This document shows positions 6,378-58,886 of a DNA stretch of 64,000 nt, in pieces. Each line of letters begins with the position of its first letter. Positions within the stretch are counted from its first letter, which is position 1. The notes under the pieces are model-generated. The model searched no databases. It saw only the letters and a program-made list of their open reading frames with translations, and was not told where the DNA came from. This stretch comes from Terriglobia bacterium (GTDB lineage: Bacteria; Acidobacteriota; Terriglobia; JAJPHL01), in contig JAJPHL010000045.1 of assembly GCA_021325275.1 (NCBI GenBank), positions 1 to 64,000 on the forward strand. Direction: 5' to 3'. The position numbers were made by a program, and so were the translations under genes.

Positions 6378-6476
6378 GTTTCTCTGCGCCTCTGCGTTCT
6401 CTGCGTTTAAAAAACCTTTTGTGATAGGGCCGACGGTTTTTTTAAACGCAGAGAACGCAGAGACGCAGAGAAAACC
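6377..6476. repeat. long intergenic hairpin built of 9-bp tandem units (copy B)
   Basis: Arms 6377-6408 and 6444-6476 are almost perfectly complementary over about 32 bp. They consist of tandem CTCTGCGTT-like 9-mers. The loop shares GATAGGGCCGACGGTTTTTT with copy A in the same orientation, so the two are direct copies flanking the 4191-6377 gene. The left arm begins at the last base of that gene's stop codon. Confidence 0.82.
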
Positions 6477-6509
6477 AGCGCGGCAAGGCGTTGTGCTACG
6501 CTCTTCTTT

Positions 6510-8744
6510 GTGACGCTTCACCGCTTGCGCGCTGTTCTCCTCCTTCTTTTTCTCCCTTGTGCGTCCCTTCGCGCACTCGATCTTTCCCACGCCACCGTTG
6601 TCGCGACGCCTTCGAAAGCCGCGACCATGCTCCTCGAGGAAGCGGAGAAGCGCACCGGCATTCGCTGGACCCTCGCGAATACGCCCGCGCCCGGCGTCGA
6701 CATCATCATCACGCGCACCGCGGGGCCCGCGGAGGGCTATCGCATTTCCGTCGAGGGCGAGCACGTGGTCGTCGCGGGTAACGATGCGCGCGGCATTCTG
6801 TTCGGCATCGGACGGCTGCTGCGCGAAATGCGACTCACTCCGGGTCACGCCAACATCGATAGCGATTTCACCGTGGTCACCGCGCCCGCATATCCGCTGC
6901 GCGGACATCAACTCGGATACCGGCCGAAGACCAATTCCTACGACGGCTGGTCGCTGCCGGTTTGGGAGCAATACATTCGTGACCTGGCAGTTTTCGGCAC
7001 GAATGCCGTGGAGTTGATCCCGCCGCGGTCCGACGACGCGCCGACCAGTCCGCTGTTTCCGCTGCCGCCGATGGACATGATGATCGGCATGTCTAAACTT
7101 CTGGACGATTACGGACTCGACGTGTGGATTTGGTATCCGGCCATGGATCCCGACTACACGAAACCGGAGCAGGTTCGCGCCGCCGTCGAAGAATGGGCCG
7201 ACGTTTTCCGCAAGCTGCCGCGCGTCGACGCCGTTTTCGTTCCGGGAGGCGATCCGGGACACACCGAGCCGAAAGTTTTGATGGCGTTGCTCGAGCAGCA
7301 AGCCGCGTCGCTGCGGAAATATCATCCGCACGCGCAAATGTGGGTGTCGCCGCAAGGATTCAACGACGAGTGGATGAAGCAATTCCTGGCGATCCTGAAC
7401 AAACAGCAGCCCGCTTGGCTGACGGGCATCGTTTACGGTCCACAGGTTCGCGGCACGATTCAGGAATTGCGCGCCGCCGTTCCCAAGCGCTACGCGCTGC
7501 GCCATTATCCCGACATCACGCACAGCAAGCAGTCGCAGTATCCGGCGCAGAACTGGGATACGGCGTACGCCATCACCGAAGGACGCGAGGGAATCAATCC
7601 GCGGCCGTATGACGAAGCCGCAATTTTCCGCCGCACGCAGCCAGGCACAAACGGATTCATTACGTATTCGGAAGGTTGCAACGACGACGTAAATAAAATC
7701 ATTTGGAGCTCGCTCGGTTGGGACCCGGAAGCGAACGTGCGCCAGATCGTTCAGCAATACGCACGATATTTCATCGGGGAATCGCTTGGACCGCTCTTTG
7801 CCGACGGAATTTTCGACCTGGAACAAAACTGGCGCGGACCTCTGGCGCAAAACGCCGGCGTCAACGCGACGCTCGACACGTTTCGCGAACTCGAAAAACG
7901 CGCGACTCCGCGCGATCTCGCGAATTGGCGGTTTCAGCAGGGGCTGTACCGCGCGTATTACGACGCCTACACTCGCGACCGGCTGAATTACGAGAATCTG
8001 CTGGAGAGCCAGGCGTTCGACGCATTGCGCTACGGCGACAAAGACCGCGCGATCCAAACCCTCGACCGCGCGGTGACCGATCCCGTCGCGCAGGAGTATC
8101 GAACGCGCGTTTTCGAGTTGGCCGAAGCGCTGTTCAAAAGCATCAAGATGCAACTCAGCGTGAAGCTGTATCAAGCGATCGCCGTCGATCGCGGCGCGAA
8201 CCTCGACACGATCGACGTGCCGCTGAACGATCGCTTGTGGCTGAAGAAACGAATCGCTGAGGCCAACGATCAAGCCGCCCTCGACGCATTGGTGCATCGC
8301 ACCGACCCCGGCTCCGGCGGATTCTACGACGATCTCGGCGTCTCCGATCGCCAACCGCATTTGGTGAACGATCCCGGAACGTACATCGGTTTTGCCTACA
8401 ACGCCGAGTGGCCGCGCGCCTGGTGGAATCACGCGGCGGCACTGTACGACGCGCCGCTGCGCATGCGCTACACGGGACTCGATGGGGAAGCGCATTATCG
8501 CTTGCGCGTGGTGTACGCGGGCGACAGTCCGCGCGTGAAAATGAAGCTTTCCGCCGGCGATTCCGAAATCGAAGTACATCCGTTCATCGACAAGCCAAGT
8601 CCGATGAAGCCGCTTGAGTTCGATATCCCTGCGGCAGCGATCAAGAACGGCGAGTTGCTGCTAACTTGGCGTCGCGAAGCGGGGCAGGGCGGCAACGGAC
8701 GCGGCAATCAAGTCGCCGAAGCGTGGTTAATTCGCGTGCGCTGA
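6510..8744 (+). CDS. secreted glycoside-hydrolase-like protein (GH20/GH67-type N domain)
   Basis: Product of 744 residues beginning with a signal peptide (RLRAVLLLLFLPCASLRA), hence periplasmic or secreted. Residues ~25-115 look like the small alpha/beta domain that precedes the catalytic barrel in GH20 hexosaminidases and GH67 glucuronidases (GYRISVEGEHVVVAGND, ILFGIGRLLREM). The next ~350 residues read as a TIM-barrel (RGHQLGYRPKTNSYDGWS, GLDVWIWYP, FVPGGDPGH); the C-terminal ~250 residues look helical then beta-rich. The substrate is unknown and I could not place it in one CAZy family. The start is a GTG at 6510 without an obvious Shine-Dalgarno site. Confidence 0.72.
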   Translation: MTLHRLRAVLLLLFLPCASLRALDLSHATVVATPSKAATMLLEEAEKRTGIRWTLANTPAPGVDIIITRTAGPAEGYRISVEGEHVVVAGNDARGILFGIGRLLREMRLTPGHANIDSDFTVVTAPAYPLRGHQLGYRPKTNSYDGWSLPVWEQYIRDLAVFGTNAVELIPPRSDDAPTSPLFPLPPMDMMIGMSKLLDDYGLDVWIWYPAMDPDYTKPEQVRAAVEEWADVFRKLPRVDAVFVPGGDPGHTEPKVLMALLEQQAASLRKYHPHAQMWVSPQGFNDEWMKQFLAILNKQQPAWLTGIVYGPQVRGTIQELRAAVPKRYALRHYPDITHSKQSQYPAQNWDTAYAITEGREGINPRPYDEAAIFRRTQPGTNGFITYSEGCNDDVNKIIWSSLGWDPEANVRQIVQQYARYFIGESLGPLFADGIFDLEQNWRGPLAQNAGVNATLDTFRELEKRATPRDLANWRFQQGLYRAYYDAYTRDRLNYENLLESQAFDALRYGDKDRAIQTLDRAVTDPVAQEYRTRVFELAEALFKSIKMQLSVKLYQAIAVDRGANLDTIDVPLNDRLWLKKRIAEANDQAALDALVHRTDPGSGGFYDDLGVSDRQPHLVNDPGTYIGFAYNAEWPRAWWNHAAALYDAPLRMRYTGLDGEAHYRLRVVYAGDSPRVKMKLSAGDSEIEVHPFIDKPSPMKPLEFDIPAAAIKNGELLLTWRREAGQGGNGRGNQVAEAWLIRVR

Positions 8745-29114: not shown

Positions 29115-32100
29115 TCAGTGGACTGCGATTGTCGCCGAGTTGCTCGAAATGCCGTTCTGCGTGATCACCACCGCGACCGCTGGCCCCGCCGGGACGCCCG
29201 TGGGCACGACTGCGTTCACTTGATACAGGCCCACAAATCCCGGCGCGAGTCCCGCGAACTGCACGGTGGCGTTCATGCCTCCTACCATCACGGTCGCCGG
29301 CGTGGTCACGATCGCTTTGGCCGGCGACGGCTGTCCCGTGGTCACGGTGGGCGCCGTGGGTCCCAAGCCGGTGCAGAAAATCACGATCACGTCGCCGGCG
29401 GTGGCGGGCGCGTTGGAATCCACGAGTACGTTCTTCGCGTTGAGGATCGCTCCTTGCGATGCGGTACCGGTCAGGAAGATTCCCGGCTGCGCGGCGCCGA
29501 GCGTTACGCCGATCGGCGCCGAATCGAGCTCCGACGTGCTGTTAACCGCGCGCGCCACCAGCGACGCGCGCTCGTTCACCGGGAGATCGAACGGAACTTG
29601 CGCGTTCACTTGGCCTGTGCCCGAGTAGAACAGCGGCAGGTCCTCGCCGCCCATCGAAAGTTTGATGCCGCCGAGCACCGTCGGCAGCGGGAAACTCGCC
29701 AGATTGCCGTTCGACGTCGCGAGATTGCCGCCGAAAACGGAAATGATGCTTCCCGGCGCGACGTCCTGAAGCGGCGCGAAGCTCGCACCGTTCACTGCGC
29801 CGCCTACGCCGATGAAGGGCGGCGGAGTGGTGGCGGAATTCGCGGTGACCACGCCGTTGACGGTGGTATTGGCGCTGGTCAGCGGCGATTGTACGGCTTG
29901 AATCGTGACGGCGGTTGCGGCGTTGGCGGTTACCGGATTCCATGTCGCCGAGTAAATGCCATTGCCGAGATTTGTGAGCGTCAATCCCGGATCGCCGTTC
30001 GAGAAAGTAGCCGTGACCGTGGCGTTCGTGGCGGCCTTTCCGCAATTGTCGAGCAGTTGCACTTCCAGACCTGCGGGTTGCCCGGTGACGTAATTGAAAT
30101 TCGCGGGAAGCTGGCGCATGCCCATCACCAAACTCGTTGCGGTGCATGTGGAAACCAGCACGCCCGTCGTCGGCGGCACAATGTAGGTGATCTGCACGTC
30201 TTGCGCGAGCGAGGAGTATCCTTGCGGCGCGATGGTCACAACGCTGTGATAGACGCCCGCGGCGAGAGTGAGCGACGCGTTAGTGAGGCCGATGGTGACG
30301 TTGCCGGTGAGGGCCGAAAAACTTGTCGGCTGCGCCGTGAGCCACGGCGTGTTCACGCCCACGGTGACAGATTCGGACACCGTGGAATTGCCGACCAGTA
30401 CGCTCACGGTCTGCGCGGGACTCGGTCCGCCTTCCACGAACATCAAGCTCAGCGGATAGATCGCATTCAGCGGCGGACCACTCGGCAGAACAGTTAACAC
30501 AACGGTTAAGTATTGCATCGCTTGGGTCGTGTTCTGCTGCGTTACGCCAACCAATCCGTAGTACGTGCCCGCCGCGAGCGATCCGGCGTTCACCACGACC
30601 ACCATCGTTCCCGGCGCTGTGGCGGTGGCGGTGCCGATTGCGGTGAATCCGGTTGCGCCGCCGGCTGCCGCGACCAACAACCAATTCGGACCAGTCGACA
30701 CTTGCGGAAGCGGTTGAACCACGTTGGCCGTCCAGTTGAGCGTGCCAGTTCCGGTATTGGCCACGGGAACGCCTTGCGTCACGAAACTATTCGATCCTGC
30801 GAAGGCGGAAAGCTGCACGGCCGATTGACCCAACGCGAGCACAGGACCCGCGGGCGTCATGGTCAACTGCACGTTTATCACTTGCGGCGCTTGCGAGGAC
30901 GATGCGCCGAACTGCACGGCGATTTGTCCCGCGTACACGCCCGCCGTCAAGCTACCGCTGGTGATCAACAATTGCGGGACGGCCGGCGATGTCAGGCTGA
31001 CGTTACCGCTCGACGCGGTCAGCCCCAGCCAGTTGCCGCCGTTGCTTGTTGTGATGGCCGCGCTCCAGGTTTGTGCCGTGCTCGCGGTGCTGGAGATCGT
31101 GATCGACGGAGTCGCCGTGGGATTTACGCCCACCACGCCTTGCAAATTGAGCGATAGCGGCGTCACCGAAAGCGTTCCGTTAGCCACGGGATTTACGGTG
31201 AGCGTCACCGGCACGGTGAGTAAGGGCGGATTCGCTTGCGCATCGGCGATGGTGATGGCGCCCATGTACGATCCCGGCGCCAGCCCCGAGGTGTTCGCGT
31301 TCGCAAAGAACGCGGCCGGCAGTTGACCTGCCGAAGGCGCCACGCTGAGCCAATTTCCTCCCGTCGTGGTGCTGGCCGACGCTTGCCAGGTGGTGCCTGG
31401 CGCAATCGACGAGCTCAACGTCAACACTTGCGTCGCGGCAGGAGCCCCGGCGTTCGCGGTGAATGCGAGCGCAGTAGGCATGACGGAAATTCCCGTGGTC
31501 GCGACGTTGAAGGTCACGGTGAACGAGGCGCTTTCCGCGCCCGCGGTCACCAGCACTTGTCCCACGTACTGTCCCACCAGCGTGCCGACGTTCGCGGAAA
31601 CCACAATCGTTCCGTTGCCGACACCCGTCGACGGCGTGATGGTGAGCCAATTTCCTCCCGACGTCGTTACGGCGGCCGCGGTCCAATTCGGCAGCGACGG
31701 ATCCACCGTGACGTTGACGATCTGCGTGGCGGGATTCGCCATCGTGGCCGTCGCGGTGAACGCGAGTGACGTGGGCGACACCGAGAGCGTTTGCAGCGTG
31801 GCCGTGAGCGTCACCGGCACAATGACCGACGCGATGGGCGCGTTTGGAAACGTGATGATGACTTGGCCGTTGTAAACGCCCGGCGTGAGTCCCGCCACGT
31901 TGACCCCAATCGTGATCGTGCCGTCGCCGTTTCCTGTGTTGGGCGACGAGCTGAGCCAGTTAAAGGCGCCGTTCAGCGTGAGAGTGGAGACGACATACAC
32001 AGCGTTAGCGGCCGACGAAGGCAAGGTCAGCGCGAAGGTCTGCGCCGCGGGATTCGACGTGCCGGGTGCGGAGAAATTGAGTTGCGAGGGGGCCGCGGTG

Positions 32101-33755
32101 GCGGTGGCCGTCGTGCCGATGTTCAGGAACACAGGAATCGAGATCGGTGTGACGGTCGAGCCGGAGGGCGCGCCGGAAAATCCGATAAAGACCGCGCCCG
32201 CGTAGCTGCCGGTGGGGAGTCCGCCGATCGATACGCCCACCGTGATCGTTCCGTTTCCGGTGCCCGATCCCGGGGTGACCGCGATCCATTGTCCACCGCC
32301 GGCGGTGGCGGCCGTCAGACTCCAGTTCAGATTTCCGAGCGACGCGGGAATCGTGAGCTGCACGGTCTGCGTCGGCGGATTCGATGTCGCGTTGGCGGCG
32401 GCGGTGAACGTCAGTTGCGTGGGCGAAACGCTCGGCACCGTGATAGTGCCCACGCTGAACGAAACGATTGTTTGCACGGAAGTCGGCGTCGGCGATCCGC
32501 CCGTGAAACTCACCGTGATCGTTCCGTTGTAGAGTCCCGCAGGTAACCCAGTTGGTGACGCGGAAACTGTGATCGTGCCCGTGGCTGTTCCCGATGTCGG
32601 TGTCACGGTGAGCCAGTTGCCGCCGCCTGTGGTGGCGGCGGTGGCGGTCCAACCGGTGATCGATGCCGCGGAGGGAATCGTGAGCTGCAAAGTTTGTGAC
32701 GCAGGCGCCGCGGTGCCCGGCGCGGTGAAGGCCAATTGCGATGGCGCGAGCGTGGGCTGCGACGGATTCGTGAGCGTCAACGTTACCGGCACGGTGATCG
32801 CCGGCGCGGCGCTGCTCGTGCCGGAAGCGCCCGGAAACGTGATCGTCACGGTTCCGGCGTAATTTCCTGCCGCGAGACCAGTGGCGTTAGCGGTTACGGT
32901 GATCGTGCCGCCAGCCGATCCCGACGTGGGTGTCGCTGAAAGCCAACTTCCGCCCGTTGTCGTGGTCGAAGCGACGGTCCAACTCGTGGCCGCCGATCCT
33001 GACGGGATTGTCAACGTAAGTGTTTGCGCTGCCGGACTCACGCCAAGCGTCGAGGAAAACGCCAGCGATGCCGGCGACACGCTTGGTCCCGGCGCGGTGA
33101 CGTTGAATTGCACCGGAGTCTGCGGCGGATTCGCACCGTTCACCGTGACATATCCAAAATACGTGCCGACAGCCAGTCCTGTGGCGTTCACCGACACTGA
33201 GAGCGACGTGCCCGAGCCTGATGTGGGAGAAACGCTGAGCCAATTTGCGCCATCGTATGTGAAAACCGAGGCGGTCCAACTGGCTTTCACCGATCCTGTG
33301 TTGGCGAGCGTGAGTTGCAATGTTTGCGGCGCGGGATTCGTTCCACCCGCTCCGGTTTGAAACGTCATGATCGAGGCCGCGACGTTAAACGTCACCGGAA
33401 CGATGATCGGGCTGTCGGTGCCGATCGTCACCGTCACGTGACCTTGATACGTTCCCACCGGCAGATTGCCGGCGTTTGCGTAAACCACTACGCTGCTCGT
33501 GCCGATCCCCGTCTGCGGTTGGACTCCGAGCCAGTTTCCGCCACTCTGAGTGCTTGGTATGGCCGTCCACGACGCGCCGGCATTGAAACCAGCGGTGGTA
33601 ATGGTGAGTGCTTGGCCGCCCGTGTTTCCTCCGCCGACGATGCCGAGCAGATTGATCGAGGAAGGCGAGACGCCGGACGAGGCTTGGCCGGATGCCAAGC
33701 AAGCAGGCAAAATAATACACAATAAGGCGGCAATCCGCGGAAGACTCAGTCGCAA
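29115..33755 (-). CDS. giant exported repeat protein (BACON/Ig-like modules) with Solibacter-type C-terminal domain
   Basis: A protein of 1546 residues, translated from a TTG with AGGAG six nt upstream. A signal peptide (IAALLCIILPACLASGQ) is followed by about 11 beta-sandwich modules of ~85-100 residues. Each is marked by a W-containing motif (GGNWLSV-, GGSWLSA-, NTPWLTA-) followed by P-x-S/T-G and then G-x-Y-x-G. These resemble BACON/abundant acidobacterial Ig-like repeats. A further Ig-like module (VTATFSNGDPG) and a TIGR03437-type domain (FIGVGGAVNGASF, YSGTGQVNAQVPFDL) end the protein. Likely an extracellular adhesin or scaffold; no catalytic motif is seen. Recombination between modules could change the copy number. 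Confidence 0.85.
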   Translation of the reverse strand: MRLSLPRIAALLCIILPACLASGQASSGVSPSSINLLGIVGGGNTGGQALTITTAGFNAGASWTAIPSTQSGGNWLGVQPQTGIGTSSVVVYANAGNLPVGTYQGHVTVTIGTDSPIIVPVTFNVAASIMTFQTGAGGTNPAPQTLQLTLANTGSVKASWTASVFTYDGANWLSVSPTSGSGTSLSVSVNATGLAVGTYFGYVTVNGANPPQTPVQFNVTAPGPSVSPASLAFSSTLGVSPAAQTLTLTIPSGSAATSWTVASTTTTGGSWLSATPTSGSAGGTITVTANATGLAAGNYAGTVTITFPGASGTSSAAPAITVPVTLTLTNPSQPTLAPSQLAFTAPGTAAPASQTLQLTIPSAASITGWTATAATTGGGNWLTVTPTSGTATGTITVSASPTGLPAGLYNGTITVSFTGGSPTPTSVQTIVSFSVGTITVPSVSPTQLTFTAAANATSNPPTQTVQLTIPASLGNLNWSLTAATAGGGQWIAVTPGSGTGNGTITVGVSIGGLPTGSYAGAVFIGFSGAPSGSTVTPISIPVFLNIGTTATATAAPSQLNFSAPGTSNPAAQTFALTLPSSAANAVYVVSTLTLNGAFNWLSSSPNTGNGDGTITIGVNVAGLTPGVYNGQVIITFPNAPIASVIVPVTLTATLQTLSVSPTSLAFTATATMANPATQIVNVTVDPSLPNWTAAAVTTSGGNWLTITPSTGVGNGTIVVSANVGTLVGQYVGQVLVTAGAESASFTVTFNVATTGISVMPTALAFTANAGAPAATQVLTLSSSIAPGTTWQASASTTTGGNWLSVAPSAGQLPAAFFANANTSGLAPGSYMGAITIADAQANPPLLTVPVTLTVNPVANGTLSVTPLSLNLQGVVGVNPTATPSITISSTASTAQTWSAAITTSNGGNWLGLTASSGNVSLTSPAVPQLLITSGSLTAGVYAGQIAVQFGASSSQAPQVINVQLTMTPAGPVLALGQSAVQLSAFAGSNSFVTQGVPVANTGTGTLNWTANVVQPLPQVSTGPNWLLVAAAGGATGFTAIGTATATAPGTMVVVVNAGSLAAGTYYGLVGVTQQNTTQAMQYLTVVLTVLPSGPPLNAIYPLSLMFVEGGPSPAQTVSVLVGNSTVSESVTVGVNTPWLTAQPTSFSALTGNVTIGLTNASLTLAAGVYHSVVTIAPQGYSSLAQDVQITYIVPPTTGVLVSTCTATSLVMGMRQLPANFNYVTGQPAGLEVQLLDNCGKAATNATVTATFSNGDPGLTLTNLGNGIYSATWNPVTANAATAVTIQAVQSPLTSANTTVNGVVTANSATTPPPFIGVGGAVNGASFAPLQDVAPGSIISVFGGNLATSNGNLASFPLPTVLGGIKLSMGGEDLPLFYSGTGQVNAQVPFDLPVNERASLVARAVNSTSELDSAPIGVTLGAAQPGIFLTGTASQGAILNAKNVLVDSNAPATAGDVIVIFCTGLGPTAPTVTTGQPSPAKAIVTTPATVMVGGMNATVQFAGLAPGFVGLYQVNAVVPTGVPAGPAVAVVITQNGISSNSATIAVH

Positions 33756-48899: not shown

Positions 48900-48921
48900 T
48901 CTGGGGTAGGCCGAGAATCAG
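48900..48921 (+). repeat. degenerate, truncated CRISPR repeat at the array's 5' end
   Basis: TCTGGGGTAGGCCGAGAATC matches the first 20 bases of the 36-bp repeat except at positions 1 and 9. The 3' part (GGTCCTGCGC...) has diverged, and the spacing to the first intact repeat is 62 nt instead of 66. Degenerate repeats usually mark the oldest, leader-distal end. It has lost the TACACT box. Confidence 0.75.
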
Positions 48922-48961
48922 GTCCTGCGCTAAATCCGCAACGGTGGCGGCTACGCTTCGC

Positions 48962-49854
48962 GCTGGGGTTGGCCGAGAATCACCGCTCATGTACACTGCA
49001 GGCCGTCGACGGGCGCGGAGATCCGCCGCTGGGGTTGGCCGAGAATCACCGCTCATGTACACTGTTTTGATCTGTCCGGTGACACACGCAAGCGCTGGGG
49101 TTGGCCGAGAATCACCGCTCATGTACACTTTAGATGCTCAGATAGTTCGTATAGGCATGCTGGGGTTGGCCGAGAATCACCGCTCATGTACACTCCGCGC
49201 CTTCGCTGCCCTTGAGCCAAACGCGCTGGGGTTGGCCGAGAATCACCGCTCATGTACACTACAATTCCCGTTGTTACCGACATAAATCCCGCTGGGGTTG
49301 GCCGAGAATCACCGCTCATGTACACTCTTACGTTTGGCTGGCCGGATGCACGCCGCGCTGGGGTTGGCCGAGAATCACCGCTCATGTACACTCCCTCGAT
49401 GAAATTGGCTATCCCGCCCGACGCTGGGGTTGGCCGAGAATCACCGCTCATGTACACTAACGGCGACACGGCCGCCGTTCTCGCGGCGGCTGGGGTTGGC
49501 CGAGAATCACCGCTCATGTACACTCGATGTCGATTCCGATGTTGACCGCGGCCGGCTGGGGTTGGCCGAGAATCACCGCTCATGTACACTCGAAGAGCAG
49601 TTCAATACAGACTGGTTGCGGCTGGGGTTGGCCGAGAATCACCGCTCATGTACACTCGATCCCGTCATTCCCTCCCGTCACCGTGCGCTGGGGTTGGCCG
49701 AGAATCACCGCTCATGTACACTACACAGGAGATCGTGGTCTGCATCGACAAGGCTGGGGTTGGCCGAGAATCACCGCTCATGTACACTGCCTGCGATGCG
49801 GGAAGCTCCGTACGCTTGGCTGGGGTTGGCCGAGAATCACCGCTCATGTACACT
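48962..49854 (+). CRISPR. type II-C CRISPR array, 14 identical 36-bp repeats and 13 spacers
   Basis: Repeats start at 48962, 49028, 49094, 49159, 49225, 49291, 49357, 49423, 49489, 49555, 49621, 49687, 49753 and 49819; all are 36 bp and identical as read. The repeat begins GCTGGGGTTGGCCGAG and ends CTCATGTACACT. Spacers are 30 nt (48998-49027 and so on), except that at 49130-49158, which is 29 nt. The anti-repeat in the tracrRNA (54447-54482) shows that crRNA sense is the plus strand, opposite to the cas genes. TTGGCC (repeat positions 8-13) and TACACT (31-36) are 17 nt apart, a possible promoter in each repeat. I could not match any spacer to a target. Frames read through this region are artefacts. 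Confidence 0.98.
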
Positions 49855-49856
49855 AG

Positions 49857-49897
49857 GCCGCGCGCAAAGCTCGGTAGTTTCGAGCTTTGCGCGCGGC
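49857..49897. terminator. perfect 17-bp palindrome between array and cas2
   Basis: Arms 49857-49873 (GCCGCGCGCAAAGCTCG) and 49881-49897 are exact reverse complements around the loop GTAGTTT. It starts 2 nt after the last repeat and ends 7 nt before the cas2 stop. Transcripts of the array (plus) and of the cas operon (minus) would meet here, so a bidirectional terminator is likely even though there is no proper T-tract. The alternative is that it forms the leader. Confidence 0.6.
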
Positions 49898-49904
49898 GCG
49901 TTCT

Positions 49905-50243
49905 CTAAAAGAGCAGTAATTGCATCGGCGGATCTTCCGCCGGGCGCGGTTTTCGGCCATAAAAGACTTCCATTTTCCCGAACTGATGATCCGTCAGCGC
50001 AACGATTCGCACCTGCCCAAGCGGTGGAATCACAGCTCGCACCACTCTCCTATGCGTAGCGGCGGCTTCTTCGCTGGGTATGAATCGCGCATAGACAGAG
50101 TATTGTAGCATCATGAATCCATCCTTCAAGAGAGCCTTGCGAAATCGCGTATAGTTGCGACGGTTTTCGGCGGTCTCGACGGGCAAATCGAACATTGCGA
50201 GCATCCACATGGATCGATACGCCGACAGCGGAGCCGGCTTCAC
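49905..50243 (-). CDS. cas2: CRISPR-associated endonuclease Cas2
   Basis: A 112-residue protein; with Cas1 it forms the integrase that inserts new spacers. The beta-1 strand ends in the conserved Asp (MWMLAMFDLP, Asp19), followed by the II-C-type RKALLKDGFMMLQYSVYARF. The GTG at 50243 is chosen because it overlaps the cas1 stop (GTGA, 50240-50243), has GGGGAA upstream, and gives the leader residues before MWM seen in type II Cas2. ATG at 50210 is the alternative. Third and last gene of the cas9-cas1-cas2 operon, 50 nt from the array. Confidence 0.93.
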   Translation of the reverse strand: MKPAPLSAYRSMWMLAMFDLPVETAENRRNYTRFRKALLKDGFMMLQYSVYARFIPSEEAAATHRRVVRAVIPPLGQVRIVALTDHQFGKMEVFYGRKPRPAEDPPMQLLLF

Positions 50244-51142
50244 AAATGGTTCCCCGGTTCCGGCACCTCTAGTTCCTTCGCACCCGACATGATCGCTCGC
50301 ATAACGCTCGCGGCCAGTTGCCCGGCGCAGTCGAAGAGAGTCCGTTCCTCGCCATCGACCTCGAATCTGCAAACGAGCCGCTCGAGTATCCAACGCTTCG
50401 TCTCACCATCCAGCGGTTCGGAGGGGTCGTTTTTTTCGACCCATTGCGCGACGGCGAGATCGACGATGGGACGGAAAGGCTCCATGAGGTCGTCGGCGAG
50501 ACAAAATGGATTGTAACGGTTGTGGTGATTGAGTCCAAACGACGGGTGCAAGCCTGCCGCGCACGTCGCGCGTGCCATCACGCCGCGAAGGATGGCATAA
50601 CCGTAATTGAGGTGATTGTTTTGGTTGGGGCCTTCATTCCCGCGGCGAAAGTGAGGATCGTTGAAAAGGAGCGGCCAGTATCGCCGGGCGGCCTGCGCTT
50701 CGAGGTTGTCCACATCGCCGGAGCGGACTCGTTCAGCCATCGGTTTGAGGCCGCCATCGCTGCCCGCGACCGCCTCCAACGCGCGCGCCTGCGCTCGAAT
50801 CTTTGCTTGAACAAGTTGTTGCCACAGGCGTTTTCGCAGTGGCTCGGTTACTTGCGCCTGCTTCGCATAACGCTCAGTTTGTACAAAGTTGGCCTGCAAG
50901 GGGAGCAGCATAGCGGCGGGCAGATATTTGTGATCGCACACCACGACTGTTCCGCCACAGGCGGAGAGTCCGGCGATGACCGATTGAGTGAGTTGTACTC
51001 GGGGGTGCGTTAGCACCAGCACCGCGATCTCGGAGAGAGGCGTCGTGAAAGTGTCCAATCCCTCGCGGTCGACCGCTAACTGGTTGTTCCTGACGTGAAG
51101 GAGCGCCGGGCCCTCGGCAAATTCAACGATGCGGTGAGACAT
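50240..51142 (-). CDS. cas1: CRISPR-associated endonuclease Cas1
   Basis: A 300-residue spacer integrase of the type II group. Metal ligands are in place: Glu148 (VDNLEAQAARRYW), the His in GLHPSFGLNHHNRYN (206/207), and the acidic pair in ADDLMEPFRP (Asp218/Glu221). GAGGAA lies 7 nt before the ATG, inside the cas9-cas1 gap of 9 nt. The 3' end overlaps cas2. No csn2 or cas4 is present, which together with the Cas9 size fits subtype II-C. Confidence 0.97.
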   Translation of the reverse strand: MSHRIVEFAEGPALLHVRNNQLAVDREGLDTFTTPLSEIAVLVLTHPRVQLTQSVIAGLSACGGTVVVCDHKYLPAAMLLPLQANFVQTERYAKQAQVTEPLRKRLWQQLVQAKIRAQARALEAVAGSDGGLKPMAERVRSGDVDNLEAQAARRYWPLLFNDPHFRRGNEGPNQNNHLNYGYAILRGVMARATCAAGLHPSFGLNHHNRYNPFCLADDLMEPFRPIVDLAVAQWVEKNDPSEPLDGETKRWILERLVCRFEVDGEERTLFDCAGQLAASVMRAIMSGAKELEVPEPGNHL

Positions 51143-51151
51143 CGAAGTTCC

Positions 51152-54100
51152 TCAATCGGACGCGGGATGAACCCGCCCCAGCGGATCGACCGATACCTTC
51201 CGGCAACCCAATTGCCGAAGTACATTTGGACGGGGCCGCCAGAAATCGTCGCCCATCTCCTTGACGATGCGAGCGTCGTTGATCCTTACCAGAGCAATCT
51301 GCTCGTTGCTGGCGATCGTCCGGACGCGATACAGTCCCGGCCGATCCCCACCGGAAATTTCCACTATATCGCCGCCCATCAGCGAAAACTTGAATTGATG
51401 CTGGCCATCTTCTCCATATCGGCGGCAAACGACTGGTTGCTTTTGGCGGCGCCGCTGGATCGCATCCAGCAGCGAAACAGGAAGGCCTTCCCATGCGACC
51501 TCCCGGCCCTGGCCGTCTAACCTCGCGAAAATCTCCACATGATGATTGTTGCCGGGCTGAACGTATCGCTCCCTGGGCCCCTGTCCCACCGATACCGGTT
51601 TCATCGGTTTGCGTACGCGCACCTTGCGAATGGGGATCTTTCGTCCGTCGCGCGCGAGCAAGTGGGGCAAACGTTCCCAATCTTCCGCCGGAAGCGAGGA
51701 AAGGGCGTTCAATTGGCCCAGATCCCCGCCCAGTTCCGCAAGCTTTTTCTCCACAGCCGCGCGGACCGCGGGATCGACAATGGCGGGAATGTCCTTGGCG
51801 CTCAACTTGCCGAGCGGCTTCCGGATGCTCACGTAGTCTTTGTTGCCGAGGCCATATTTATAAGGCTTGCTGTAGAGCGTCTCTTCATGGAGGGGCCCGC
51901 TCAGTTTATGGCTGGGACGGTGGGAGACGTTGAGGTTTTCAATGTGCGGGCGAACGGAATCGATAAAATCGCTCCACGGCCCTGGCAATCCCTTGAAAGG
52001 GCGATACGGCCTGCCGTCGGGCGGAACCTTCAAGCGAGCGGCCGCGTCGCTCATTGCCTTGATCACGGAGTTCGACGTAAGACCGACCACCACCGCGTCC
52101 ACGGAGTGGTGACGATGATCGTCGCGGCCCTTTCCTTCGCCATGACCAAGAATCGCTTCGAGACCCCAAACCTTGCGCAGCGTGGCGGTGACCGATCCAC
52201 TGCTCGCGAACACGCGCTGTCTTCCGTTGACGACCCGTCCGCCGTAAAGCTGCGCCAAGTAGTCGCCGGCAATCTTACTGGTACAGCGCGTATCGTTTAA
52301 CTGGCGGGCGGTGAATTCGCCGAGGAGCTTGTCGGCCAATGTTTCTTCCGGTGTCAGCAGGAAACGACGCAGTTTTTCCGGATTGTTGAACGAGCGCACA
52401 CGCGTTACGATTTCCGTCCACCGTTCCTCACCTGGATCGTAAAACGCCTCATACGGCGTCTGATTGTGCTTTCGGGCGTTCGCTTCATAGTGACAAAGCG
52501 TCTTGTTATTGAAGGAATCGTCGGGAAAGCGGCCGAGCGGCAGAATGTGTTCGACCTGAAACTCCGGCGCCTCAAAGAGTGTCTTGTGGCTGATGGGCTT
52601 TCCGGTATAAGGGCAAATCCAGCGACATTCGTCTGCCAGCATGATCTTCTCGATATCCGCTCGGCTGGGATGGGGATCGTTGGTTTCCTTTCGCAGCGCT
52701 ATCGCCGCGGCTTGGCGCCGCTGTTCGAGTTTCCGATTCCGAACCCAGATATCTTGCCGCTGTTTCCGATTCTTCTTCAGGTCGCGGGCCAGCTCGATCC
52801 GAACGGAATCCGGTTTGCCGTACGCGCGCACGATTGCGTTGACCACTTTTCGCAGTTCGCTCATGGCCCTTTGTACGGCGGGATTGCGCACGCTTCCACA
52901 CGGCGGCAAGCGATCTTTGGGCGCCTCTTTCTGTTTCGGATACGCCAGTTGGATTGCCTCGGTCAGGGAAAGCCCTTCCTCCAATAACGGAAGTAATCTC
53001 GCCAGGGCTCGCAAAGAGAACGCACAGTATCCCGGCTCCGCCGTCGATTCGCTCCAGGCGCGGGCGTGATCTTCATCCATGCCCCACTTTTCCCGCGCCT
53101 GTCGAAAAGCGTTCTCCCGGTCCTCTTCGCGGCGCCAATCCTCGACTGCTTCGACTTGCGCGGTGGGTGACACGCCTTCCCAACGGTCACTGAAGGCCGC
53201 GCGCATGTGCGAAGCGGTGCGGTTTCCGCGGCAGTTCTTTTCGCCGCCGCGCTCGAGATTAAACGCCACGCCTTTTTCCTTCGCTCCAATGAGTTTTCTG
53301 AGCGCCGAGAACTTCTGATCTCCATCGGTTTCCAGTTTGGCTAGGATTTGAGCGCGCTCCTCCGCCGACAATGGACGCTCAAAGCCCGAGAGGTCCCCCA
53401 GCCTCATGTTGTTCACGCGGTCCAAGACGCGAAATCGCTGAGCCGCAAGCGTGGCCCAGGGCGCTCGCTTCTGGGAGGGTTCAAGTTCGCACAAACCGAC
53501 CATTTTTTCGCCGTCCTGAATGGGGCGCTGGTCGAACAGCAATGTTTCGATACGCGTCCGAAGTTCGGCGGTGAGCAGGTCAGGCCGGTTTGCCGCTTGC
53601 TTCTCCCAAATCGCGGAAAATTCGGCCGTAAACATGCGGCGATCCGTCCAGCGCCCGCGGATACGGCGTACGTTGGGATTGAGGCGCGAAAAGTACTCAC
53701 CCAAACTGCGAGCGCCTCCCTCGGCGATCGCTTGTTGCAGTTCGGCGATTCCTTGCTTGACAGTGCCTTCGTCCTCATCCTTCTTTGGCGCCGCCTTTCG
53801 ATTGCTCTTGAAGCCGCGCCTTTGACAGAGATGAAAGATTACTCGACCGAGTTCGCGAGGGTCGACCGCCGTGTCCAGGCACCTGCGGCGGAGGAAATAG
53901 ACCAGAACATGTTCTTTGGCCAGAACGGCCGGGTCCGCAGCCATCGTCTTTTGCCATTCAGCCCAAAGCTCTCGGTCCAGTTGGTTGATGGTTTCATGAA
54001 TGGCGACGCTCTTATTTACGGGCTGCGAGCCGGGCGTCGGTGGCAATAGTCCATGCGACTGTAGGAGGGAAAAAAGGTCGCGTCGCCGCGCCGCGCGCCG

Positions 54101-54316
54101 GCGGGCTTGGCGACGCTGCAAGCGCGCCTCTCGCCGAACCTTGTTTCGAGATTCCTCCTGGCCGCGATCCATTTTGCCGTCTACGCCGGGATCGAAAACG
54201 CGAACGCCGGCCGACAAAATTCCATGCGGTCCACCGTCGACATGCTGAATCAAAGCCCAGCCAATCGAGGCAGAGCCGATATCGAGTCCCAAAACATAAT
54301 CTTTCGTGTCGATCAT
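51152..54316 (-). CDS. cas9: CRISPR-associated endonuclease Cas9, type II-C
   Basis: A 1054-residue RNA-guided DNA nuclease, the size of compact II-C enzymes. RuvC-I is YVLGLDIGSASIGWAL (Asp12). The Arg-rich bridge helix is RRQARRRAARRR (about 72-83). RuvC-II is VRIELARDLKKNRKQR (Glu508). HNH is QVEHILPLGRFPDDSFNN (His590), preceded by CPYTGKPI. RuvC-III is HHSVDAVVVGL (His736/737, Asp740). All catalytic residues are present. The start is the ATG at 54316 (MIDTKDYVLGLDIG) with GAGGAG upstream. The frame stays open to 54502, but that extension runs through the tracrRNA anti-repeat. A PAM-interacting C-terminal region follows RuvC-III; its specificity is not readable. Upstream CATAAT (54347-54352) is a possible -10. 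Confidence 0.97.
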   Translation of the reverse strand: MIDTKDYVLGLDIGSASIGWALIQHVDGGPHGILSAGVRVFDPGVDGKMDRGQEESRNKVRREARLQRRQARRRAARRRDLFSLLQSHGLLPPTPGSQPVNKSVAIHETINQLDRELWAEWQKTMAADPAVLAKEHVLVYFLRRRCLDTAVDPRELGRVIFHLCQRRGFKSNRKAAPKKDEDEGTVKQGIAELQQAIAEGGARSLGEYFSRLNPNVRRIRGRWTDRRMFTAEFSAIWEKQAANRPDLLTAELRTRIETLLFDQRPIQDGEKMVGLCELEPSQKRAPWATLAAQRFRVLDRVNNMRLGDLSGFERPLSAEERAQILAKLETDGDQKFSALRKLIGAKEKGVAFNLERGGEKNCRGNRTASHMRAAFSDRWEGVSPTAQVEAVEDWRREEDRENAFRQAREKWGMDEDHARAWSESTAEPGYCAFSLRALARLLPLLEEGLSLTEAIQLAYPKQKEAPKDRLPPCGSVRNPAVQRAMSELRKVVNAIVRAYGKPDSVRIELARDLKKNRKQRQDIWVRNRKLEQRRQAAAIALRKETNDPHPSRADIEKIMLADECRWICPYTGKPISHKTLFEAPEFQVEHILPLGRFPDDSFNNKTLCHYEANARKHNQTPYEAFYDPGEERWTEIVTRVRSFNNPEKLRRFLLTPEETLADKLLGEFTARQLNDTRCTSKIAGDYLAQLYGGRVVNGRQRVFASSGSVTATLRKVWGLEAILGHGEGKGRDDHRHHSVDAVVVGLTSNSVIKAMSDAAARLKVPPDGRPYRPFKGLPGPWSDFIDSVRPHIENLNVSHRPSHKLSGPLHEETLYSKPYKYGLGNKDYVSIRKPLGKLSAKDIPAIVDPAVRAAVEKKLAELGGDLGQLNALSSLPAEDWERLPHLLARDGRKIPIRKVRVRKPMKPVSVGQGPRERYVQPGNNHHVEIFARLDGQGREVAWEGLPVSLLDAIQRRRQKQPVVCRRYGEDGQHQFKFSLMGGDIVEISGGDRPGLYRVRTIASNEQIALVRINDARIVKEMGDDFWRPRPNVLRQLGCRKVSVDPLGRVHPASD

Positions 54317-54410
54317 TTGCTCCTCGTCGGCGTTGGAATGCCGCATATTATGGCACATTGACGTGAAGCGTTCGGTGCAAATTTCCCAGACCTTCGCCAG
54401 CGATTTCTTG

Positions 54411-54439
54411 TTGACACGTTGGTGGCGTTTCGCTAGAGT
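54411..54439 (+). promoter_or_regulatory. tracrRNA promoter
   Basis: Perfect -35 TTGACA (54411-54416), 17-nt spacer, -10 TAGAGT (54434-54439, 4 of 6 consensus). It reads away from cas9 and places the start at about 54446, right at the anti-repeat. Confidence 0.75.
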
Positions 54440-54445
54440 GAGCAG

Positions 54446-54556
54446 CGTGTACATGAGCGGCGATTGCTCGGCTAATCTCAGTAAGCTTTCGTCGTAAGGC
54501 AACGCTCAATGAGCGACCGCACGAAATGCCTCCTGAAAAGGAGGCATTTTTATTTG
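54446..54556 (+). ncRNA. tracrRNA
   Basis: Predicted ~110-nt RNA, plus strand, divergent from cas9. The anti-repeat (54447-54482) matches the reverse complement of the repeat, with one bulged G (54466), one A-C mismatch, and four C-to-T changes that leave G-U pairs. A nexus-like hairpin follows: GCTTT (54485-54489) with AAGGC (54496-54500). A small hairpin CGCTC-AAT-GAGCG (54503-54515) comes next. The 3' end is the intrinsic terminator at 54524-54555. This is the RNA that pairs with each crRNA repeat, recruits RNase III where needed, and loads Cas9. No ORF track can show it; the call rests on anti-repeat, promoter and terminator together. Confidence 0.9.
54524..54555 (+). terminator. intrinsic terminator of the tracrRNA
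   Basis: An 11-bp perfect stem (AAATGCCTCCT, 54524-54534, with 54539-54549), a GAAA tetraloop and a T-rich tail TTATTT (54550-54555) on the plus strand. On the minus strand the tail is weak, so it mainly ends the tracrRNA, although it could also serve the TPP-enzyme gene that ends at 54592. Confidence 0.85.
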
Positions 54557-54591: not shown

Positions 54592-56385
54592 TTATGCTCC
54601 GGCTTGTTTGCGGATTTCTTCGAAGCTCGCAGCAATCGGCGGATTCATTTCTTCGAGTGAATTCGAACGCATCTTGCCATCGGGCAAAAGTCGCGACGCG
54701 ACGACGGGCAAGATGCGCTGGTCGATCTGGCCCATCACTTCGCAGACCACCGGTCCCTTGATCGCCAGAATCTCCTGAATCCGCTGCTTGGCGACGCCAC
54801 GATTTTCCACGCGCGCGAAGCGCAATCCATAAGCCGCGGCGATTTTTTCGGTTTCCGGCAGGGTGACACCCGATCCCGGCGTCGAGCCGACGTAGAATCC
54901 CTTGAAGAAAGTCTCCTGTGTGCGTCTGATCGACCCGTAGCCGTCGTTGTTGATCACAAACAGCTTCACGTTGAACTGATGATGCGCCAGCGTCTGCAAT
55001 TCTTGAATATTGGTTTGCAGTGAGCCGTCGCCGATCACGGCGATCACATTTGTTTCGGGATGGGCCGCCGCCACGCCGAACGACGCCGGCAATGCCCAGC
55101 CCATTTCCGCGAACGATCCGGGATTCAAGTAGCGCTGCGTGCCCTTCACGCGAAACGCCTGGCCCAAGATCGGGTGCGGCTGTCCGGCGTCGGTGAGAAT
55201 CGTTTCGCCACCCGATAGAACGTCGGACATTACGTCGATGAATTCGTACAAGTTGACGCGGTCGCCCGGTTCGCCAAAAAGATGGCCGTCCTTCATCACG
55301 TTGTATTCGATTTTCCACTGGCGGCAGAGGTTGCGCCACGATTCGGGCACCGCGCCCGCGTAGCTTGCGCACATCGAAGCGAGGCGCGGCAGGTAATCGT
55401 GGATGTCCCAAGCATGTTTGAAATGCACACCGATTTTTTCGCGCTGCAACAGCGGGCGCTCCAAATCGATTTGGATTTTTTCGGCGCGCGGCGCGAACAT
55501 GTCGCCTTCGTACCCCACGGTTTGCACGTGCAAGCTGCATCCCATCGTGACAATCAAGTCCGCAGTCTGGACGGCGAAGTTTGCGGCCCGATGTGCCCGC
55601 GGTCCCGGATGGCCGACCCACAAGGGATGATCGAACGGCATCAGGTCTTTCGCCATTAAAGACGTCAGCACGGGAATTCCGAGGGTCTCGACAAATTTCA
55701 AGAACGCCGGTGTCTGCGACGCGCAACGCACGCCATGACCGGCGAGAATCAGTGGACGTTCCGCGCGTCCAATGCGATTGAGCAGCGCTGCCAATTCCTC
55801 TTCGTCCGCGCGTTTCGCCGACGGCGCGGGCGGAACGAACGCCTCGCTGTCCTCGGGATAGGCCGCGCCTTGCACGTCGAGCGGAATGTCGAGCAGCACG
55901 GGACCGGGACGTCCTTCGCGCGCCAGGTACAAGGCCTTCTCGAGGTGAAAACGCATGCGTTCCGGACTCTCGACAAACGCGGCATACTTGGTGACCGATT
56001 CAACAATCGGCACGATGTCCACTTCGAGAAATCCGTTTTGCCGCAATCCTTCGATGCCGCTAGCGCGCGCGGTGTCTTCGCGCTTGCATTGGCCCGTGAT
56101 GAAAAGAATCGGTACGGAATCCTGATACGCGCCGGCCAGTCCCGTGACGAGATTCGTTGAGCCGGGGCCGCTTGTCGCGAGGCACACGCCAAGTTTTTCA
56201 CTGCGGCGCGCGTATCCGTCGGCGCCCATCGCGCACGCCTGCTCGTGATGATTGCAGTAATAGCGCATGCGCGGCAGACGGCCGAAGGCGTCCATCAGAT
56301 GCATCATCATTCCGCCGGAAAGCATGAAGTAGCATTCCGCGCCGGTTTGCTCCACGGTTTGCGCGACGTAGTCGGCGATTCTCAT
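54592..56385 (-). CDS. thiamine-diphosphate-dependent enzyme, acetolactate-synthase-like
   Basis: A 597-residue protein of the AHAS/POX family. The N-terminal Pyr domain has the catalytic Glu in CNHHEQACAMGADGYAR (about 44-60) and SGPGSTNLVTGLAGAYQDSVP in two pieces around residue 75. The central domain is TPP_enzyme_M type. The C-terminal PP domain has the TPP motif GDGSLQTN, then NNDGYGSIRR (about 455-505). It lacks an adjacent small subunit (ilvN), so a carboligase or decarboxylase other than biosynthetic acetolactate synthase is possible. The start overlaps the stop of the pseudokinase gene as ATGA (56382-56385), implying coupled translation. Confidence 0.82.
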   Translation of the reverse strand: MRIADYVAQTVEQTGAECYFMLSGGMMMHLMDAFGRLPRMRYYCNHHEQACAMGADGYARRSEKLGVCLATSGPGSTNLVTGLAGAYQDSVPILFITGQCKREDTARASGIEGLRQNGFLEVDIVPIVESVTKYAAFVESPERMRFHLEKALYLAREGRPGPVLLDIPLDVQGAAYPEDSEAFVPPAPSAKRADEEELAALLNRIGRAERPLILAGHGVRCASQTPAFLKFVETLGIPVLTSLMAKDLMPFDHPLWVGHPGPRAHRAANFAVQTADLIVTMGCSLHVQTVGYEGDMFAPRAEKIQIDLERPLLQREKIGVHFKHAWDIHDYLPRLASMCASYAGAVPESWRNLCRQWKIEYNVMKDGHLFGEPGDRVNLYEFIDVMSDVLSGGETILTDAGQPHPILGQAFRVKGTQRYLNPGSFAEMGWALPASFGVAAAHPETNVIAVIGDGSLQTNIQELQTLAHHQFNVKLFVINNDGYGSIRRTQETFFKGFYVGSTPGSGVTLPETEKIAAAYGLRFARVENRGVAKQRIQEILAIKGPVVCEVMGQIDQRILPVVASRLLPDGKMRSNSLEEMNPPIAASFEEIRKQAGA

Positions 56386-58886
56386 AGGTGAACGGTTCCG
56401 GACTTGCTGGGCTTCGCGGTGGGTTCGGCCATGCCCAGCTTCTCGCGGATCAAACGCTGGCGGAACGGCGACGGCCAATCGAGCGGCGGAGGAAGGAACA
56501 ACGCGCGTCCCGTGATCAGCGCGCGCCGCAGGGCCGGACTATCGCCGGCGAGACCGCGCGCATACAGCAACCACGGCGCAGCTTCGCTCGGCATGTTCTT
56601 CAGCGCTTCGTTGGCGGCGGCATTGTCGTGGCGCAGCAGCGCCGAGTAGACGCGAACCATGCCGGTGAGCAGATCGCGCCGCGGTTGGCTGATCCAGGGA
56701 CGCAAGGCGAAATACTGCCGCAAGCTCTCTCTCGCGCCCGCATCGTCGTGCAGCGCGCCTTGCAGCCACGCCTGCGCGGGCAATTCGTCGCCGAGAAGTT
56801 TTTGCGTCTTCACCATCGCCAGCGCCCGCGCGACGTTGCCCGCGCCGTCGCTCTTATTGTCGATCGCGCTCAAAATCGCCACGTTCGCCAGACTCATCAA
56901 CATGCCGCCCGCGGCGATCGTGTTTCCGCCCAAGCCCAAGGCGTTCGCGCCGCGCAAATATCCTTCCATGGCCGCGGGGGCGTTGCCCATCGCTTCGGCC
57001 AAACGCGCTTGATAGAGCGGCGCGACGCGCTGTTCCTCGGCGGAAGCATGCGCCTCGTACTCGTTGAGCGCGGCGGCCGCGTCTTCGTACGATCCTTGAT
57101 CGGCGAGAATCAGCGCGATCTTTTGATACGAAGAATAGCCGCCGAAATCGGGTTTTTCCTCGAGAAGTTTGCGGAACACCGTCAGCGCTTCTTCGTTGCG
57201 GCCCAGGATGAAAAGCGTTTCCCCGCGCGTGTCGAACGCGTTGGTATCGCCCGGCTGAAGTTTGATGTAGCGATCGCTGGCGTTCTTACAGGCCGCCTCG
57301 TCGCCGGCCATCGCGGTGGCGTAGACCATTTGATTCAACAGCGAAAAATCGTCGGGATCGAGTTCCAAGCCTTGCTGGACGAGTTTCACGGCGTCCGATG
57401 GATTGTTCGACAGCGAGAGCAACAGCGACAACTCGTTGCGCGCCTCGGTGTCGCGCGGAAATGCGGCCAGCAAATTTTCGAGCGCATGGCGGCGTGCCAC
57501 GGGATCGCCGCCGAGCGCGGCGAAATCCAGCGGCAGGCGCAAGCGTTCGCGGCGCGGCAGATGATCTTGCAGTTTGGCGGTGATTGTCAGGTACTCGTAA
57601 CACTGGCGTGGTCCACCGGCGCGGCAGTACAACTCGGCCAAACGGAATTTCGCCAGTGCGAACGATGGATCGAGAATCGCCGCTTGCTCGTATTCCTTCA
57701 CCGCCGGTTGCACCGCGCCGTAGATCGCTTCCTCCGCGACCAAGTAATGATGCAGCGCTTCGGGATTTGAAGTGGCGAATTGCGACGTAACGGGCCATTG
57801 CGAGGGCGCGCGCGACCCGAGAATCGACCCGGCCACTTCTTTCACCGCCGCGTCCGCGAGTCGTGCGATGTCGTTGGCGTTCTCCGCGTACAGTTTGAAC
57901 TCAGAGCGCGTGCGGCCGCCCGCGGTGTCTTGAACGCGCAAATCCAACCTCAGGCGCGAGGGACCGTCGCGCAGCAACGCGCCGGTTACCGCGAGATCGG
58001 CGCCTGACTCTCGCGCGATATCCAGCGCGACGTGGTAATTCGCGAGTTGCCCGAGTTTTTGGTTGTTATGGATCAGCGCTTCCACTTGGCGTTCGAGCGA
58101 AATCACTTCGACGCCTTGGACCTGTTCTAACCCGGTGGTAATAATGTCAGGCAACCCGCGGGATAGCCATCCAAGCGAACGATCTTGCGAAAGATTGTTG
58201 ATCCACACCACCGTTACGGCGTGCCGCGACGCTCGCGCGCCTCCCGATCGCGCGCGACTCCACCACGCGGCGACGGCGGCGATCAAGAGAATCGCTGCGA
58301 CCACCAGCAAGTAGTTGCGATGTTCAGGCGGCGGATGTACAGCGACCGGAGCGTGCGCGCCGATTGCGTACAAGTCCGCGGAAAGCTCGCGCGCCGATTG
58401 GTAACTGCCGGCGAGTGCTCGCGAAACCACCGGGCGCAGCTCCTCGGGCAAGCGCGAAATGTCGGCGCCCTCGGCTGCGGTGTCGGCGGGCGACGGCGCG
58501 ACGGGCGCGGCGTGTCCTGTGGCGAGTTCGTACAGGATGCGGCCAACGGCCGCGAGGTCGGCTTGCGGATCGAATGTTTCCGACGGCTCCTGCGCGAATC
58601 CTACAATCAGCGCTTCGCCTTGTGGCGTGATTACGATGCTATCGGGCGTCAGCGATCCATGCGTGAGTCCTTGCTCGTGGTGCTCGGCGAGCGACGTCGC
58701 AAGGTCGATGGCGATGCGGCGGAATTGCGTGGCGCTGATGCCGGAGCCCGCGATGATTTCACGCAGTGTGCGGCAACCGGCCGGCAGTTGCAGCGGCAGC
58801 GGCGCCGGTTCGGGCGACGGCGTGATGTCCGCGGGCGTGTCGGCGTGCTCCGGAGTGTTTTCTGGGAGAGGCGTTTCGTCGCTCAT
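56382..58886 (-). CDS. membrane pseudokinase with TolB-like and TPR domains
   Basis: An 834-residue protein. Residues 35-125 resemble only the C-lobe of a Ser/Thr kinase. The HRDLKPEN position reads HGSLTPDSI (76-84) and DFG reads GFA (96-98), so catalytic Asp residues are missing; Gly-loop and Lys are absent too. A transmembrane helix follows at about 191-208 (YLLVVAAILLIAAVAAW). Next comes a TolB-N-like domain (about 225-360: SRGLPDIITTGLEQVQGVEV) and a long TPR array (about 385-780). Such kinase-TPR proteins are typical of Acidobacteria, but this one should not phosphorylate. It is translationally coupled to the TPP enzyme downstream. Confidence 0.8.
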   Translation of the reverse strand: MSDETPLPENTPEHADTPADITPSPEPAPLPLQLPAGCRTLREIIAGSGISATQFRRIAIDLATSLAEHHEQGLTHGSLTPDSIVITPQGEALIVGFAQEPSETFDPQADLAAVGRILYELATGHAAPVAPSPADTAAEGADISRLPEELRPVVSRALAGSYQSARELSADLYAIGAHAPVAVHPPPEHRNYLLVVAAILLIAAVAAWWSRARSGGARASRHAVTVVWINNLSQDRSLGWLSRGLPDIITTGLEQVQGVEVISLERQVEALIHNNQKLGQLANYHVALDIARESGADLAVTGALLRDGPSRLRLDLRVQDTAGGRTRSEFKLYAENANDIARLADAAVKEVAGSILGSRAPSQWPVTSQFATSNPEALHHYLVAEEAIYGAVQPAVKEYEQAAILDPSFALAKFRLAELYCRAGGPRQCYEYLTITAKLQDHLPRRERLRLPLDFAALGGDPVARRHALENLLAAFPRDTEARNELSLLLSLSNNPSDAVKLVQQGLELDPDDFSLLNQMVYATAMAGDEAACKNASDRYIKLQPGDTNAFDTRGETLFILGRNEEALTVFRKLLEEKPDFGGYSSYQKIALILADQGSYEDAAAALNEYEAHASAEEQRVAPLYQARLAEAMGNAPAAMEGYLRGANALGLGGNTIAAGGMLMSLANVAILSAIDNKSDGAGNVARALAMVKTQKLLGDELPAQAWLQGALHDDAGARESLRQYFALRPWISQPRRDLLTGMVRVYSALLRHDNAAANEALKNMPSEAAPWLLYARGLAGDSPALRRALITGRALFLPPPLDWPSPFRQRLIREKLGMAEPTAKPSKSGTVHL

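Follow-up and report, generated by a model that had tools for sequence, protein, structure and literature searches.

The window analysed here is the whole 64,000-nucleotide stretch of DNA from a Terriglobia bacterium, and its segment at 48900–54556 holds the following features.

48900–48935, plus strand: decayed oldest ('extra') repeat, matching the intact repeat at 23 of 36 positions
48962–49854, plus strand: CRISPR array of 14 exact 36-nt repeats and 13 spacers, with the plus strand as crRNA strand
49855–49904, plus strand: probable downstream leader, 50 nt from the last repeat to the cas2 stop, with CAA at +11 to +13
49857–49897, plus strand: leader hairpin with a perfect 17-bp stem (arms 49857–49873 and 49881–49897), a 7-nt loop and a weak T-rich tail after it
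49905–50243, minus strand: cas2, 112 aa, GTG start
50240–51142, minus strand: cas1, 300 aa, type II (NMENI) family, overlapping cas2 by 4 nt
51152–54316, minus strand: cas9, 1054 aa, with RuvC and HNH motifs
54411–54439, plus strand: sigma-70-like tracrRNA promoter, TTGACA-17-TAGAGT
54445–54556, plus strand: tracrRNA, with the anti-repeat at about 54446–54483, internal stem-loops and a terminator stem at 54523–54550

The locus is a further case of the known II-C kind with its own repeat, tracrRNA and spacers, and we consider it very probable that 48900–54556 is a complete acidobacterial type II-C CRISPR-Cas9 locus of an ordinary sort. A sequence-only reading had claimed a complete set of tracrRNA, cas9, cas1, cas2 and array, and our analysis reproduced this set nearly base for base. 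The tight packing that it described is present, with a gap of 9 nt between cas9 and cas1 and an overlap of 4 nt between cas1 and cas2. It had also stated that csn2 and cas4 are missing, which agrees with an array-to-tracrRNA interval that leaves no room for a further ORF. For csn2 the absence at the locus is judged solely from the missing ORF there, and CRISPR-type Cas4 is absent genome-wide. The single Cas4-family match in the genome (G000:C16) is marginal, lies within an ORF of about 1116 aa and looks more like a RecB-type nuclease than a CRISPR Cas4, and was rejected. The genome carries one copy of Cas1.

All three proteins score well above the NCBIfam cut-offs (cas_Csn1, 665 bits; cas1_NMENI, 251 bits; cas2, 70 bits). 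The length of 1054 aa given earlier for Cas9 was confirmed, and the claim that every catalytic residue is there is matched by RuvC and HNH motifs, found as GLDIGSASIGWA, IELARDL, VEHILPLGR..N and HHSVDAVV. Against solved structures, Cas9 scores 264 bits with the best PDB entries, which we take to be Nme-type Cas9, compared to 119 bits with St1 and about 41 bits with SpyCas9, and these bit scores favour a II-C assignment. Gene content, the Cas1 family, the solved relatives and the promoter-bearing repeats all support the type II-C reading made earlier; because the Cas9 tree described below contained no II-A or II-B references, the subtype call is based on the genes present, the HMM families and the PDB matches. 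A compact, uncharacterised Cas9 with a repeat and tracrRNA of its own is useful stock, although unsurprising.

The tracrRNA was said to have its own promoter and terminator, and both are borne out by sequence signals together with the anti-repeat pairing. The terminator comprises a 12-pair stem followed by a T-rich tail, and the tracrRNA fold has a z-score of −4.5. The repeat:tracrRNA duplex reaches −60.6 kcal/mol; about 2000 random 60-nt pieces taken from the window average −23.7, and the best of them reaches −42.0. In the array itself, the 13 spacers (30 nt long except for a single one of 29 nt) and the 14 identical copies of the 36-nt repeat, GCTGGGGTTGGCCGAGAATCACCGCTCATGTACACT, are as previously counted, and the identity of the repeats is at most suggestive of recent activity. 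The ORFs that cross the array on either strand are translations of repeats and were rejected as genes.

Two features of the repeats had been overlooked. One is the 15th, decayed repeat, in which the 5′ two thirds are recognisable, the 3′ third with its −10-like TACACT is gone, and the duplex with the tracrRNA is weakened to −32 kcal/mol. The other is a promoter-like pair, TTGGCC-17-TACACT, in every intact repeat, with TACACT at the repeat end; 40 of 52 full-length related repeats carry such a pair, where chance would give 13%. These predicted promoters, with crRNA transcription running toward cas2, fit type II-C. We also see signs of polarity in 36 related arrays that have both ends inside their contig, where the far-end repeat deviates from the last repeat in 12 and the second-newest repeat deviates in none, a pattern of far-end decay that would match spacer insertion at the cas2 end. 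The repeat:anti-repeat pairing and the polarity signals, like the gene content, can be read directly from the DNA.

Polarity, one promoter per repeat, insertion via the last repeat and a mutated first repeat have already been published for II-C arrays (Feussner et al. 2025, PMC12080349), and in R. anatipestifer new spacers are acquired between cas2 and the adjoining repeat (PMC6008519). Insertion on the cas2 side, as in R. anatipestifer, would place the site in the window at 49855. The II-C systems of Neisseria meningitidis and Campylobacter jejuni share with the window the three cas genes, promoters in the repeats, a tracrRNA, a decayed first repeat and acquisition at the last repeat, which for the window is a prediction (PMC12080349; PMC3936727). 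The window differs from them in that its Cas9 is distant from any studied, and in its own repeat, tracrRNA and spacers.

From the studied II-C systems we infer how crRNA synthesis, cutting and acquisition would proceed here. With a promoter in each repeat, short crRNA precursors would begin inside each spacer and extend through the next repeat. The repeat portion of the crRNA would pair with tracrRNA transcribed from 54446, and the pair would guide Cas9 to cut DNA. Cas1-Cas2 would add new spacers next to the leader at 49855–49904, on the cas2-proximal (3′) side of the array; the oldest repeat, at the far end, is decayed. To our knowledge, spacer acquisition has been demonstrated in few II-C systems only.

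A Cas9 search of 121 relatives gave any match in 29 genomes, of which about 17 have a real Cas9 and the remainder HNH-only matches; a wider sample of the phylum added further Cas9 matches. The closest Cas9 relative is about 50% identical. A single-sequence query of genome contigs returned no close Cas9 relatives, and a scan of genome contigs gave 80 Cas9 relatives from many phyla. A FastTree tree of 95 Cas9s places the window in a nine-member clade (SH support 100) made up exclusively of same-class genomes and named Acidobacteria. This supports the acidobacterial context claimed by the sequence-only reading, which had proposed such a phylogeny.

The II-C loci of other Acidobacteriota (G009, G402, G090, Terriglobus albidus and others) resemble the window in the TACACT at the 3′ end of the repeat and, where adaptation genes are present, in gene order and leader layout. 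Their Cas9s are 44–50% identical to that of the window, and the repeat and hairpin sequences are particular to each locus. In Terriglobus albidus (L059, genome G379) neither cas1 nor cas2 was found beside cas9, and no array was detected in the surrounding 13.5 kb either; the HNH motif of this Cas9 is VHIIP, in contrast to the EHIIP or EHILP of most relatives. Another related locus (L082, genome G003; oriented 5082–8669) has a fragmented cas9, a second CRISPR-like array (7493–8394) between the fragments and a shortened cas1, and is in decay or rearranged.

A spacer search for protospacers and a PAM had also been proposed, and it was run on phages, plasmids, viral contigs and 399 genomes of the class without finding a protospacer. 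A blastn search of phage and plasmid records with the array produced sub-spacer chance matches alone, eight scans of viral contigs with the exact 19–20-nt 3′ ends of eight spacers gave no match, and the 399 class genomes gave related arrays and short matches that cover no spacer. The genome itself contains no spacer-sized second match that would indicate self-targeting. As no protospacer was matched, no PAM was derived. The missing protospacers are what could be said for the locus being a silent relic, which we regard as very improbable: viruses of soil acidobacteria are thinly sampled, so the missing matches are weak evidence, and against it the three ORFs, the repeats, the tracrRNA and its promoter are intact and the Cas9 motifs are conserved.

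In this ordinary locus, the conservation of the probable leader is worth an experiment. The interval 49855–49904, which had been overlooked, is probably a downstream leader and spacer insertion site that partly overlaps the end of cas2, as judged from a comparison of 65 non-redundant loci from many phyla, in which repeat ends were aligned on TANNNT. These loci were gathered by similarity to the window Cas9 and share ancestry, so the p-values given below, which assume independence, are optimistic. In 55 of 68 loci, 48–53 nt separate the last repeat from the cas2 stop, with 50 as the commonest value, and the leader is otherwise nearly saturated in sequence. Two positions stand out, with A at +13 in 95% of the 65 leaders compared to 23% of 946 spacers, and A at +12 in 75% compared to 25%. 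A test for sites like the IHF consensus, WATCAANNNNTTR, gave a relaxed core, YAANNNNYTR, phased at +11; the WAT part is not conserved across leaders. Starting at +11, this core is found in 25 of the 65 leaders compared to 0.3% of spacers, and at any other phase in at most five. The window leader has CAA at +11, yet CGG instead of YTR at +18. The core resembles the IHF consensus, and of the three HU/IHF-family proteins in the genome one scores 114.9 against an IHF beta cut-off of 115.

IHF sites with upstream motifs reportedly occur in a subset of II-C leaders, and the core may already have been described in the literature. For the fixed spacing into cas2 and the leader hairpin we found no description in the II-C literature searched, where a tight 50-nt hairpin leader is likewise undiscussed for Neisseria/Campylobacter-type systems. 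Like the family of the window, the IHF-dependent leaders of type I-E, which are said to include counterparts in a subset of II-C, combine a bend-site-like core phased from the repeat with an outer second element. Unlike in those leaders, the outer element here would fall in the end of cas2, and the core often lies inside the hairpin.

The codons at the end of cas2 were examined for traces of such an element. The penultimate codon shows a strong synonymous bias: it ends in T at 42 of 63 loci, where codon use in cas9 of the same locus predicts 14.7, and the other 24 codons tested show far weaker bias (next smallest p, 0.0014). Read on the plus strand, the bias makes the bases around +53 to +58 rich in A. 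In the window the penultimate codon is CTC, not CTT, and the family trend is not followed. Taken with the fixed spacing, the codon bias suggests that the outer element of the leader is located in the cas2 end. In our main reading, Cas1-Cas2 would land on this leader, with the IHF-like YAANNNNYTR core at +11 and an anchor that extends into the cas2 end.

In the window, the leader hairpin has a predicted energy of −38.8 kcal/mol (z = −7.7), and its tail is too T-poor for a terminator scan to call. Across the family, 30 of 65 leaders contain an inverted repeat at p ≤0.02, and the 5′ arm nearly always begins within 10 nt of the repeat. In these 30 the hairpin symmetry falls into two classes, with arm sums of 36–38 and 45–48. 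The symmetry centres thus form two clusters separated by about half a helical turn, which displaces the second arm by about one turn. Within significant stems, G.T mismatches outnumber A.C mismatches by 8 to 2, and the T fraction is 0.45 after the stem compared to 0.26 in the leader, with A at 25% before the stem. The G.T excess and T-rich tails, which are small counts, favour an RNA structure on the crRNA (plus) strand. For eight leaders with a symmetry centre at +23, standard pairs make up 93% of positions, compared to 57% with shuffled partners and 35–43% when slid; these eight were chosen for their stem, so the 93% is partly built in, and the prevalence of 30 in 65 is unaffected. Nearly every position in this class shows two to four pair types, with A12:T34 and A13:T33 invariant. 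Transcripts from a promoter in the last repeat would begin some 7 nt beyond it, within the 5′ arm, and the stem could then halt them before they read antisense through cas2 and cas1. Acting as RNA on the crRNA strand, the hairpin would probably limit antisense transcription into cas2, a claim that is weaker for the window than for the family because of the T-poor tail.

The convergent layout of the cas operon and the crRNA array, the strong hairpin in 30 of 65 leaders, the T-rich tails and the preponderance of G.T over A.C mismatches could all be accounted for if the array–cas2 interval were a mere terminator between the two units, with no role in acquisition. We think this unlikely, as about half of the leaders have no significant hairpin, and these still keep the 48–50 nt spacing and the A at +13. 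For termination, neither the distance to the cas2 stop nor the base at +13 would have to be constant.

It is somewhat less doubtful, although still on the improbable side, that the inverted repeat serves as a DNA dyad for a dimeric protein, either Cas1-Cas2 or an HU/IHF-type protein, and that the RNA hairpin is incidental. The two clusters of symmetry centres, separated by about half a helical turn, speak for such a dyad, as does the centre-+23 class, in which A12, A13 and their partners T34 and T33 are invariant while the flanking pairs vary freely. Against this, the arms have almost fully diverged in sequence but still pair, as would be expected of a structure more than of a sequence-specific dyad, and the G.T/A.C asymmetry and T-rich tails, again as small counts, point to plus-strand RNA.

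A broader reading, in which such a leader has two roles across the family, is put forward tentatively, at a little under even confidence as a whole. In this region of the Cas9 tree, most II-C loci would share a leader of constant length, about 50 nt or about five helical turns, bounded on one side by the last repeat and on the other by an A-rich anchor formed by the last cas2 codons. It would be the landing site for insertion and, where folded into a hairpin, also a brake on transcripts from the repeat promoters. The end of cas2 would then be under selection at the level of DNA as well as protein. If the leader reading is true, it provides a testable map of insertion-site choice (+11 to +20, the 50-nt spacing and the cas2 end) and bears on II-C systems without csn2 or cas4.

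A further published parallel is the set of extraneous-crRNA hairpins and terminators of Feussner et al. 2025 (PMC12080349), where, as in the window, RNA hairpins flank a II-C array and the extra repeat is decayed. Those hairpins lie upstream of the first repeat; the window has its hairpin past the last repeat, at the end where spacers would be acquired.

Three Bryobacter-type loci (L066, L090 and L132) have leaders of 92–102 nt, not 50. In L066 and L090 the hairpin and the AA at +12/+13 are retained, as if about 42 nt, or four helical turns, had been inserted before cas2.

Around the locus, an Rfam scan of the window gave one tRNA and nothing else, and the ten neighbouring ORFs showed no PADLOC family that would mark a defence island, apart from a weak PD-T4-6 domain match in a TPR ORF. 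The latter encodes an 834-aa protein (56382–58886, minus strand) with TPR repeats and an apparently kinase-like N-terminal stretch, to which the weak match belongs. Elsewhere in the window, at 29115–33755 on the minus strand, lies a 1546-aa ORF with BACON_2 domains.
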